A stretch of 26,406 nt of DNA from positions 1-26,406 of the IMG/VR virus record IMGVR_UViG_3300029319_000418; one strand, given 5' to 3'. Positions within the stretch are counted from its first letter, which is position 1. The number at the start of each line of letters is the position of its first letter. A program made the position numbers and the translations under genes. Shown here piece by piece: positions 3,980-19,473 of the stretch. The stretch is from a virus. Below the pieces are notes generated by a model, which ran no database searches, was not told where the DNA came from, and was given only the letters and a program-made list of their open reading frames with translations.

Positions 3980-4651
3980 TTAAAAAAGAGATATTTGTTC
4001 AAGTTGTTTACTATTCAAATTACTTTTATTTGAAAAATTTATTGGATTTTGAGAAATTCTTTTTTCCCATCTGATTTTATCTGAGGATGATTGCATCTCA
4101 TTTCTTCGTCTTGTGTTCCATCCTTTGCCAATATTTCTTTTTTGACCTCCAACTTCCCATCCACTTGCTTTGTAGATTGTCCCGCTGTGAACACTTGTAT
4201 CTTGATAAGAGATCAACATTGAAATATCTGGAAATCTTTTTTTAATCGTTTTTGTCATTAAAGAAATCATTCTTGTCGCAGTGTTTTTTGGCGCATATTC
4301 GCTTATGGCAAATCTTCTTAGTTCAAGTCTTCCAGTTCCGTTGTAAGCTCTTGCAATTGGGTCGGTCCAAATAGCGGAAGCAAAAAAACAATTTTTAAAA
4401 ATTGCTCCAAAACAGATGCTATGTCCCATATTAGGGTTAGTAATTTTTGGAAGACGTGAATGCCATTTTTCGTTCAACATAACTGCTTCATCAATAGAAA
4501 TTTCTTCGATTTCTAATTGGAGCGGAGACACAGGAATCGAACCTTGACCTTCCACTTGGAACAGTGGTTGTGCTGCCACTACACTATCTCCGCTTAAAAA
4601 ATTGATCGTCTCTGAATTAAGATTAATTTTTTCTGTCTCGTATTTTTCCAT
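3980..4651 (-). CDS. Mom-like GNAT DNA-modification protein
   Basis: This 223-residue protein resembles the Mu Mom family, GNAT-fold enzymes that modify adenine in phage DNA and protect it from host restriction. The core runs from about residue 46: 'EIEEISIDEAVMLNEKWHSR', then 'GHSICFGAIFKNCFFASAIW', 'GRLELRRFAISEYAPKNTAT' and 'LISYQDTSVHSGTIYKASGW'. The ATG at 4651 has a good ribosome-binding site (AAAGGAAA) and is my choice; an in-frame ATG at 4480 is the only later Met that keeps the conserved block, but it would lose the first strand of the fold. Residues about 20-45 are encoded by DNA that also folds as a tRNA-Gly. The gene is more AT-rich than its neighbours, hinting at separate acquisition. 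It starts inside the end of the zinc-ribbon gene (29-base overlap). Confidence 0.65.
   Translation of the reverse strand: MEKYETEKINLNSETINFLSGDSVVAAQPLFQVEGQGSIPVSPLQLEIEEISIDEAVMLNEKWHSRLPKITNPNMGHSICFGAIFKNCFFASAIWTDPIARAYNGTGRLELRRFAISEYAPKNTATRMISLMTKTIKKRFPDISMLISYQDTSVHSGTIYKASGWEVGGQKRNIGKGWNTRRRNEMQSSSDKIRWEKRISQNPINFSNKSNLNSKQLEQISLF
4518..4593 (-). tRNA. tRNA-Gly-like gene (probable anticodon TCC), atypical, inside a CDS
   Basis: The minus strand reads GCGGAGA at 4593-4587 and TCTCCGC at 4528-4522, a perfect 7-bp acceptor. Discriminator T and an encoded CCA (4520-4518) follow. The D-arm is GTGT/GCAC with GG in its loop. The anticodon arm contains TTCCAA, as in tRNA-Gly(TCC), and the T-loop is TTCGATT. 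Two departures are visible: the anticodon loop is 8 bases with a 4-bp stem (or 6 bases with a 5-bp stem), and the T-stem lacks one base relative to a CACAGG/CCTGTG pairing. The whole element lies in the same strand and frame as the Mom-like gene. It may be a functional phage tRNA, a frameshift-suppressor-like tRNA or a decayed one. Confidence 0.6.
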
Positions 4652-4835
4652 TGATTTCCTTTACATAGCACTCAAAGCAGTTCCTGAACGGATGAGACTG
4701 ATTGACTTGTTGAGTGAACGATTTGCCACAAGTTCGGCATTTGCTTTCTTGATTAGCGTTTTTTTGAAGTCGGCAGATGCATCTTTGTCCCTCTGGAGCT
4801 TCCAAACATGGATGAGTCAGATCTTCTTTAAACAT
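4623..4835 (-). CDS. Small zinc-ribbon-like protein
   Basis: This 70-residue protein has Cys pairs spaced like a zinc ribbon: CIC near residues 19-21, CRTC near 33-36 (followed by GKSF) and CFEC near 53-56. The rest is polar and basic, ending KIRDRKN. Such small Cys4-type proteins in phage early operons often bind nucleic acid or protein, but no specific function is seen. Its ATG directly follows the TAA of the upstream gene, and its 3' end overlaps the start of the Mom-like gene by 29 bases. Confidence 0.6.
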   Translation of the reverse strand: MFKEDLTHPCLEAPEGQRCICRLQKNANQESKCRTCGKSFTQQVNQSHPFRNCFECYVKEINGKIRDRKN

Positions 4836-7037: not shown

Positions 7038-8225
7038 TTGTCAGGAGCAGGAAAGGTCGGTCGGAGATTCCGGAAAAGGTCTCGAACCTATAAAGGAGAG
7101 ATCAAAGTCAAGATCATAGGGTTCTTCCGGTACGACGGAATCGAACTTCCTCTCTGCCCTGGACGACGGGCCGAGGAGAAGACCCTCTGCACCGAAGAAG
7201 CGATTCAACGATTCCCAAGAGGAAAAGCTCGAACGGCAGAACTGGATCGACTCTGGTTCTTGAAGCTTCAGGAGCTTCAGGATCAAGGCTATGGAAAAGA
7301 GATCCCTCCGGAGGTCTTTACCCTTGAGAGACTATTGAATCGATTCAGGGAGGAGCGTCTGAAGAAGATGAAAGACCCGTCCTTCAGTCAGCGTTTGGAT
7401 TATTGGCAGGAAAAGCTCGGAGACAAACCGATTGAATGGATGAGAGACGGACGGTCCCTCTGGCCTTCGGAAATCATTAAGCATCGGGAGAAGCTCTCGA
7501 AACGTCTGAATCGATACGGAGAGAGGATTTCTCCTGCAACCGTGAATCGATACCTAGAATGCTTGTCCATTGCGTTCTCGTATGCTCAAACCCTTGGCTG
7601 GACCGATATCAATCCAATGAAACGACCCGAGATGAAGTTCTCCATCCAGAATGATCGGGTTCGCTATCTTGGACAGTTCGACGAGGGAGATTCGGAAGGA
7701 GAGAAAGAGAGACTGATCCGAGCGATCCGTGATTCTGAATCCCCGGATCTCTGGGAAGGGTTTCTCTTCAGCATCCATACCGGATGCCGACAGGGAGAGA
7801 TGTACAAACTCACCTGGAAGAATGTGAACCTGAAGTCCGGAGTCATCCGATTCGTCGATCGGAAGAATGAAGAAGACATCGAGGTCGACGTTTCCGGTTC
7901 CGTCCAGGTCATGCAGATTCTCAGGGAGCGGAAGATTCGTTCCAACACGGAGAAAGTTTTTCCGGTGAACTTCACCAAAACCGCATGGAATAACGCACGG
8001 AGAAAAGCAGGACTCGGCCCAGAGCAGGGTCGGCAGACCTTTCGCTGGCATGATCTCCGTCATACTTTTGCCTCCGTCTTGAGGCAGAATGGAGTCCCTC
8101 TGGAGGATATTCAGAGAGGACTCGGTCACAAAGATCCGAAGTCGACCAGACGATACAGTCACTCGGATTCTTCAGTCACGAAACGAAACGTCAGCATCGT
8201 CTCTGATGTTCTCAATATAGGATGA
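7038..8225 (+). CDS. int: Tyrosine recombinase (phage integrase)
   Basis: This 395-residue integrase catalyses site-specific recombination between attP and the host tRNA gene. The catalytic set is complete: Arg251 in 'HTGCRQGEMYKLTW', Lys276 in 'DRKNEED', His338 and Arg341 in 'WHDLRHTFAS', His364 in 'GLGHKDPKS' and the nucleophile Tyr373 in 'RRYSHS'. The N-terminal part (about 1-50) has a short basic, beta-rich segment fitting an arm-binding domain. A SAM-like core-binding domain lies at about 95-200. The start is TTG at 7038, with AGGG about 8 bases before; no ATG lies nearby. It runs opposite to the early operon. A weak AT-rich stem (8224-8242) follows its stop. Confidence 0.93.
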   Translation: MSGAGKVGRRFRKRSRTYKGEIKVKIIGFFRYDGIELPLCPGRRAEEKTLCTEEAIQRFPRGKARTAELDRLWFLKLQELQDQGYGKEIPPEVFTLERLLNRFREERLKKMKDPSFSQRLDYWQEKLGDKPIEWMRDGRSLWPSEIIKHREKLSKRLNRYGERISPATVNRYLECLSIAFSYAQTLGWTDINPMKRPEMKFSIQNDRVRYLGQFDEGDSEGEKERLIRAIRDSESPDLWEGFLFSIHTGCRQGEMYKLTWKNVNLKSGVIRFVDRKNEEDIEVDVSGSVQVMQILRERKIRSNTEKVFPVNFTKTAWNNARRKAGLGPEQGRQTFRWHDLRHTFASVLRQNGVPLEDIQRGLGHKDPKSTRRYSHSDSSVTKRNVSIVSDVLNIG

Positions 8226-18786: not shown

Positions 18787-19473
18787 TCAGATCCAGTGAC
18801 GTTTGATCCAGTCCCGATCCTGAAGATCAGACTGTTTCGGTCGTCCGTGAAAATAGACGATCGAGCATGACTCTGGATCGATTCCTTGCGGTTCGATCTC
18901 CGCTTTCCATGAGAGGATCTTTCCTGGATGAAGCTCATCGAGTCTCTCTGCTCTGCCGTTCAGATTCTTCCTCAAGAACAACATCTCTGATGGACAGTTT
19001 CCGAGATATCGGATTTCTTCGGTCCAGTAATCTTTCCGAGTGTTCCATTCGTTCCAGAGCTCTGCTGATATTTCCTCGTTAAAAAATGCGACTCCGTTGT
19101 TCAATTGGCTCGGGTTGTATGGGTCCGAGTGAAGAGCGCATTCACCTTCAAAGGATAAGATCTCATCCAGGTTTCCAGTAATAACCGTGTCGAGTGCGAC
19201 GACGAATCTTCTCCCTCCGCACTCAGGTCGGAGAGCATCAAGGATTCCAGTCCATCCGCTTGATGGGTCGAGAAATCGAATCGACTCGATAGGTTCAACA
19301 AATTCATATCCCTTATCGCAGAGACAGATGAACCTGAATTCATCTGAATAATTGCGTTTAATTGATCGATAGAGCTTTTCGACCCACTCCTCCGAGTAAT
19401 ATTTTCGGGAGTATGCTGGAGGAGGATTCTTTGCTTCATTACCGTCAAATAGTGCAGTGATGATCGAGATCAT
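18787..19473 (-). CDS. GT-A-fold glycosyltransferase
   Basis: This 228-residue protein starts MISIITALFDGNEAKNPPPA and has the general GT8/GT-A pattern: 'YSDEFRFICLCDKGYEFVE', an acidic nucleotide-sugar and metal site in 'FVVALDTVITGNLDEI' (about residues 102-117, in place of a strict DxD), 'QLNNGVAFFNEE' (the 'NxGV' strand), and 'SIVYFHGRPKQSDLQDRDWI' near the end. It probably transfers a sugar to a protein or glycan. The ATG overlaps the head-tail joining protein stop (ATGA). It and the formyltransferase lie exactly where gpZ would be expected. The acceptor is unknown. Confidence 0.7.
   Translation of the reverse strand: MISIITALFDGNEAKNPPPAYSRKYYSEEWVEKLYRSIKRNYSDEFRFICLCDKGYEFVEPIESIRFLDPSSGWTGILDALRPECGGRRFVVALDTVITGNLDEILSFEGECALHSDPYNPSQLNNGVAFFNEEISAELWNEWNTRKDYWTEEIRYLGNCPSEMLFLRKNLNGRAERLDELHPGKILSWKAEIEPQGIDPESCSIVYFHGRPKQSDLQDRDWIKRHWI

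Follow-up and report, generated by a model that had tools for sequence, protein, structure and literature searches.

A 76-base tRNA-Gly-like RNA lies in frame within the gene for a Mom-like DNA modification enzyme in the window, the whole 26,406-nt stretch of DNA analyzed here (positions 1 to 26,406 of IMG/VR virus record IMGVR_UViG_3300029319_000418). Comparison with related sequences indicates that these 76 bases are a genuine tRNA-Gly-like RNA gene under selection and also N-terminal coding sequence of the phage Mom. The explanation that best accounts for the whole, and which we consider probable, is that the Mom-linked RNA would act as glycine donor for the adenine modification made by Mom. 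A little less firmly, we favor the wider reading that a phage enzyme would take an amino acid from a dedicated non-ribosomal tRNA inside its own frame and pass it to a DNA base, that is, an aminoacyl-tRNA-dependent DNA modification with dual selection on the nested sequence. A specific and tight linkage to Mom, a conserved tRNA structure, the identity elements of glycyl-tRNA synthetase (GlyRS) and in-frame dual coding were all computed. The RNA, its parts and the Mom gene are placed as follows.

4518..4593, minus: tRNA-Gly-like RNA, in frame with Mom codons 20-45 (ARAGORN, RF00005, R2 model)
4587..4593, minus: acceptor stem 5' strand GCGGAGA, with G1, C2 and G3 as GlyRS elements (full pairing with 4522-4528)
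4558..4560, minus: anticodon UCC, with C35 and C36 as GlyRS elements, also part of the Phe and Gln codons of PLFQ (sequence, relatives)
4529..4546, minus: T-arm; its 3' strand bears the bulge typical of the family, which is G at 4531 and A in the 22 class relatives (alignment)
4522..4528, minus: acceptor stem 3' strand UCUCCGC (pairing)
4518..4521, minus: discriminator U73 and encoded CCA (sequence)
3980..4651, minus: Mom-like DNA modification gene; its 223 aa include the N-terminus encoded by the tRNA (PF25680, phrog_1384, GNAT fold)
4649..4651, minus: start codon (ATG) of Mom, lying upstream of the tRNA and preceded by AAGGA at about 4657-4661 (sequence, starts in relatives)

The tRNA-like RNA and the Mom protein of the window

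ARAGORN found exactly one tRNA in the window (4518-4593, minus strand, with the odd anticodon 'tc'), and the Rfam covariance model RF00005 matched 4521-4593 of the same strand with 43.2 bits (gathering score 29; E 3e-6 for the whole window), while the family model R2 described below gave 72.1 bits (E 2.8e-14). The original prediction, in which codons 20-45 of a Mom-like gene hold an in-frame tRNA-Gly-like gene, to be checked with such programs, was thus borne out for the RNA, and for the protein by PF25680 (E 1.7e-14, 54.4 bits, above the curated cut-off of 27.1) and phrog_1384 (E 1.1e-20). The 76 nt read GCGGAGA-UA-GUGU-AGUGGCA-GCAC-AA-CCACU-GUUCCA-AGUGG-AAGGU-CAAGG-UUCGAUU-CCU(G)UG-UCUCCGC-U-CCA, and the cloverleaf parts were found as foreseen: a 7-bp acceptor, a D-arm, discriminator U, an encoded CCA, and an anticodon arm with either a 5-bp stem and a 6-nt loop or a 4-bp stem and an 8-nt loop, better read as the former. 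The T-stem, said to lack a base, is indeed irregular, but it carries one bulged G rather than a missing base, at a site common to all members of the window class (n = 23/23). All of the bacterial glycine identity elements, G1-C72, C2-G71, U73, C35 and C36 (PMC9976931), were present in the window RNA, as was the D-loop GG that many relatives lack, whereas the 7-nt anticodon loop and unbroken T-stem of an elongator were absent. Its folding energy (-25.5 kcal/mol, z -1.86) was only mildly unusual, so the case for the RNA rests on the covariance models and the relatives.

The Mom match of the window protein starts at about residue 45, directly past the tRNA-coding part, and an AlphaFold2 model predicted residues 1-40 as disordered and a GNAT domain folded from residue 42; because the N-terminal tail is predicted to be disordered, it can tolerate double duty as tRNA and peptide. 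The top PDB match of the model was 8bv8, phage Mu Mom (E 1.7e-9; profile match E 5.9e-6), which belongs to the same Pfam Mom family, shares the GNAT fold and carries out adenine N6-carbamoylmethylation. No catalytic claim is made for the window Mom, since Ser124 of the Mu protein could not be safely mapped onto it. The Mom frame is open through the RNA from the ATG at 4651, as the original prediction had stated. A start at GTG 4531, inside the tRNA, had been suggested by alignment A1 and was dropped, as relatives start upstream, frequently at a 4-nt overlap with the stop of the gene before; L173, L206, L208 and L240 have a start codon upstream of the tRNA and none within it.

Glycine tRNAs at Mom loci

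In the first distant relative (L001) a tRNA-Gly overlaps the opposite end of the Mom gene, and in the isolate Microbacterium phage Dropshot an annotated tRNA-Gly(ccc) lies 33 bp past Mom on the opposite strand; Mom loci were therefore gathered broadly, as 80 viral contigs and 51 bacterial-genome loci of the phiEf11/L001 type, 80 loci of the window type, 80 of the Chloroflexi type, and phage records. ARAGORN was run on 312 Mom-like loci. All the tRNAs near Mom had a glycine (NCC) anticodon (n = 23/23), whereas those farther off (n = 27) were of 17 kinds and only two of them were glycine tRNAs (Fisher p 2.8e-12, or about 1e-10 with the near count lowered to 18 for related loci, the relatedness of the loci making these values only a guide). 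Several of the near tRNAs have 6- or 8-nt anticodon loops, as in the window. Two further isolates agree: Salinibacter phage B2_17 has an annotated tRNA-Gly immediately after Mom, and Arthrobacter phage Sicarius2 has a Mom-linked tRNA-Gly by both ARAGORN and R2.

The Mom-linked RNA family

Covariance models R1 and R2, built from ten Mom-linked RNAs and refined to 44, recovered about 125 copies at the ends of Mom genes, most of them missed by ARAGORN, and including copies that Rfam misses as well. Among 294 Mom proteins, an RNA was found downstream in 90, upstream in 32 and downstream on the other strand, in a convergent arrangement, in two; none was found in 163, and seven were unscorable. The geometries are 5'-nested, as in the window, 3'-nested or overlapping, and twice convergent. 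Matches away from Mom were few and mostly ordinary tRNAs. The portal relatives of the window, Roseobacter phages and contigs without tRNAs, served as controls, and neither the portal-gene loci nor two Roseobacter phage genomes gave R1 or R2 matches. A relaxed-threshold Rfam search of eight loci of divergent relatives found no tRNA or other fitting family.

In the family alignment 96.1% of pairs were standard, with 248 two-sided changes and a covariation of 0.723, against at most 0.14 in slid controls; the value is inflated because the alignment was fitted to the model, yet both the slid controls and the diversity among pair types are clear. The 5'-nested class alone was 99.0% paired, with 84 two-sided changes and a covariation of 0.554 (at most 0.105 when slid). 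Acceptor pairs 1-3 (GCG:CGC) are near-invariant and pairs 4-7 vary freely and covary, a pattern that would be expected from recognition by a synthetase. The glycine identity elements were kept in at least 95% of each class: G1-C72 and C2-G71 each in 22/23 RNAs of the window class and 89/89 of the other class, U73 in 22/23 and 86/89, and CC in the anticodon loop in 23/23 and 88/89.

The one-base T-stem bulge occupies a single site in 36 of the 44 aligned sequences and is mostly A, the window having G; a normal unbulged T-stem was seen in some members (L087, L021 and L083). The T-loop often has UGC in place of UUC, and the UGC members usually lack the D-loop GG, which in the window class is kept in 14 of 15 UUC members. 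T54-T55-C56 is altered in most members outside the window class, and one class has no D-arm. Since the bulge and the altered loops recur across the family, these 'defects' are a family signature, and the T-stem bulge and D-arm loss would fit a tRNA withheld from the ribosome. At the 3' end of Mom in L071, L048, L059, L041, L039, L044, L057 and other phage contigs, the D-arm-less tRNA-like RNAs are about 66 nt long and resemble some mitochondrial tRNAs.

A FastTree tree of Mom required 30 gains or losses of the linkage, at least 11 of them forced by well-supported branches; the linkage recurs in distant Mom subfamilies with differing geometries, and the tree does not show a single origin. In L179 and L210 (tRNA at 1936-2009) the acceptor identity is damaged, at pair 2 or pair 1, with the frame still open, and these are possibly intermediates in loss of the RNA. 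L108-L112 and L028-L033 gave no tRNA-like match; they have a conserved strong hairpin with a CCACGCGTGG-like sequence within 100 bp past the Mom stop, which could be a terminator or a further-derived RNA.

Dual coding

Within the window class the RNA begins 1-8 codons past the Mom start codon, and in half of the relatives checked that start codon overlaps the stop of the preceding gene by 4 nt. Of the two possibilities originally offered, one, that a single stretch of DNA is both coding sequence and tRNA, was upheld: 22 relatives have the tRNA in the same place with the start upstream, and the Mom frame is open through it in all of them (n = 22/22), the other two frames being open in 2/22 and 5/22. 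The encoded peptide takes the form (S/R/C)(G/A)D...PLFQ...GGGSIPTS(P/A)LQ. Pair 4:69 is G-C in 15 RNAs and C-G in eight, with zero mismatches, a swap that obliges the protein to carry either Gly and Pro or Ala and Ala. Both bases of pair 5:68 fall on synonymous positions, and 22/23 RNAs have A-U, U-A, C-G or a U-G wobble there. These two pairs point to selection on the RNA.

The peptide itself is selected too, as relatives that lack the RNA (L188-L190) change it almost wholly synonymously, keeping MDIRIVHPLFQ...APSSPLQL with 7-11 synonymous against 3 nonsynonymous changes over 14 codons. The open frame in 22/22 relatives and the retention of the peptide without the RNA together mean that the DNA is selected both as tRNA and as protein. 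It had been proposed that homologues with conserved protein and lost pairing would mark the resemblance as chance; such sequences were confined to a side group that has lost the RNA (L188-L190, L195 and L198), while the main group keeps both. Among the downstream RNAs (n = 90), Mom reads in frame through the whole RNA in 70, stops inside it in 16, most often at UAA or UAG in positions 13-15, and stops before it in four. The Chloroflexi loci L150-L154, with upstream RNAs, are likewise 5'-nested.

A proposed route of glycine from tRNA to DNA

In the favored explanation, the host GlyRS would charge the linked RNA with glycine, and the bulged T-stem, or elsewhere the altered T-loop, the missing D-loop GG or the missing D-arm, would keep it off elongation factor Tu (EF-Tu) and the ribosome. 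Mom, as a GNAT-fold transferase, would then pass the glycyl group from the RNA to the adenine N6 of phage DNA. N6-glycyl-adenine and N6-carbamoylmethyladenine are isomeric, both +57 Da over adenine, and by chemical reasoning the first can yield the second through a five-membered Smiles-type rearrangement. Such a rearrangement would lead to N6-carbamoylmethyladenine (glycinamide-adenine), the known product of Mu Mom, described as glycinamide on adenine N6 (Swinton 1983, as cited in PMC3874153). Nesting of the carrier in the gene would tie carrier supply to enzyme supply, and host Gly-tRNA would serve in phages that lack the RNA, such as Mu.

Several points weigh against this donor role. Coenzyme A (CoA) donors are usual for GNAT enzymes. 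Cleavage by RNase P would destroy the mRNA of nested copies, so that one transcript may not give both products. No RNA was found at more than half of the sampled Mom loci, including the Mu, Listeria, Proteus and phiEf11 types, and it is therefore not obligatory; the Mu mom locus (L166), unlike the window, has no RNA match nearby. The donor of Mu Mom has been assumed to be an acyl-CoA such as glycyl-CoA (PMC7824862). A literature search found nothing linking Mom to glycyl-tRNA, tRNA-Gly or aminoacyl-tRNA, subscription papers, including any behind 8bv8, being outside it; a published donor assignment for Mu Mom is possible, in which case the nested RNA family would remain new.

Charged tRNAs serve as amino-acid donors outside the ribosome for FemX, L/F-transferase, MprF and PEARLs, as proposed here for Mom; to our knowledge none of these transferases acts on DNA or has a gene in which its own tRNA is nested. 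A close likeness is the non-proteinogenic tRNA-Gly of the Staphylococcus aureus peptidoglycan bridge, in which T-stem and G18G19 changes weaken EF-Tu binding (PMC4052509) and which is spared from translation for a Fem-type ligase (PMC4052509, PMC9976931). In S. aureus the glycine goes to a cell-wall precursor and the tRNAs are encoded on the chromosome, whereas here a DNA-modifying enzyme's own gene houses the RNA, whose escape feature is a T-stem bulge or D-arm loss. GNAT toxins (TacT and relatives) act on Gly-tRNA (PMC9177977), with a GNAT fold that recognizes it via U73 and G71, but they acetylate the glycine and do not transfer it to DNA.

The donor of the adenine group of Mom has so far been guessed to be an acyl-CoA, though the glycinamide structure was reported in 1983, and the roughly 125 Mom genes with a glycine-specific tRNA inside or next to them offer a concrete, testable one, glycyl-tRNA. 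If this is true, an amino acid would pass from tRNA to DNA, for which we know of no earlier case, and the data suggest that the virus itself supplies the glycine carrier with which its DNA is decorated. There would also be a reason why some phages carry a sole tRNA-Gly. The nested RNA is a rare example of a conserved tRNA lying in frame in a protein-coding gene, where both products show visible selection, and belongs to a family of degenerate tRNAs mostly missed by current annotation (ARAGORN, Rfam).

Alternative explanations

The strongest competitor, which we hold to be unlikely, regards the RNA as a tRNA-like cis-element within the mom transcript, folded and perhaps charged or cut by RNase P, which limits or times a toxic enzyme and donates no glycine. 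The position of the RNA inside the Mom frame in most loci (70/90 downstream, 22/22 upstream) would suit such a role, as would the strict translational control of Mu mom by Com (PMC6483171) and the toxicity of Mom on artificial expression (PMC12707154). Against it, the RNA lies on the opposite strand in L021 and L301 and wholly past the Mom stop in L159, L147 and L280, so that a position in cis is not required, and a regulatory fold has no need for U73, C35-C36, an encoded CCA, or glycine alone.

That the RNA is an ordinary phage tRNA for translation, reading glycine codons or suppressing +1 frameshifts and near Mom by chance, is decidedly improbable, even though tRNAs are frequent in phages and the unbulged T-stems of L087, L021 and L083 are normal. 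Ordinary tRNAs would not be glycine tRNAs only and beside Mom only, and the bulge throughout the window class, the D-arm loss and the changed T54-T55-C56 would impair use by EF-Tu and the ribosome. The likeness to +1 frameshift-suppressor tRNA-Gly drawn in the original prediction did not hold up: an 8-nt anticodon loop is possible in such suppressors and is one of two readings in the window, but suppression leaves the other departures and the Mom link unexplained. Instead of an extra anticodon-loop base on an otherwise functional elongator, the RNAs show the T-stem bulge and D-arm loss, and their odd features are family-wide and track Mom, not translation.

We give a similarly low probability to a protective linkage, with the RNA serving as a decoy, or as a tRNA that resists host nucleases directed at tRNA-Gly, in an anti-defense island that it shares with Mom. 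Two points speak for it, the anti-restriction role of Mom and the unusual anticodon loops; a decoy, however, needs neither a site within tens of bases of Mom nor in-frame nesting, nor GlyRS elements kept across phyla while the D-arm is lost. The remaining possibility, an integration remnant or, as in the second original alternative, a tRNA gene in decay that indels have joined to the Mom frame, is refuted by the comparative data and has a negligible probability: an integrase does lie in the window (7038-8222) and the RNA departs from a textbook tRNA at two single bases, but the integrase is 2.4 kb off, the departures are class-wide with near-perfect pairing and compensatory changes, and the arrangement recurs in many unrelated contigs.

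Neighboring genes and other observations

The window includes genes for terminase, portal, capsid, tail, integrase, ERF recombinase, single-stranded DNA-binding protein and a C5-methylase; the nearest relatives of its portal are Roseobacter phages, and the AT content of the Mom region is higher than that of the rest. A DNA-level search of phage records with the locus gave no match, and searches of viral contigs with the exact tRNA pattern and the ERF protein gave nothing useful. One further feature adjoins Mom.

4623..4835, minus: small Cys-rich open reading frame (ORF) of 70 aa, with a 29-nt overlap between its end and the Mom start (sub-threshold family matches only)

Translational coupling of this ORF with Mom is possible. 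The order of the two recalls com-mom of Mu, and the zinc-finger matches of the ORF were all sub-threshold. The C-terminus of Mom (window 3980-4010, minus strand) is QLEQISLF, similar to a bacterial sliding-clamp-binding motif; a second, weak motif of this kind may be the PLFQ encoded by the tRNA, and Arthrobacter phages (L024, L171) have a sliding-clamp gene near Mom. In many of L001, L021, L022, L024 and L171, a gene with a ParB-like nuclease domain is either the immediate upstream neighbor of Mom or one gene removed from it, and a glycosyltransferase-like gene (phrog_1962) is located at 18787-19473 (minus strand) of the window, within the head-tail module.
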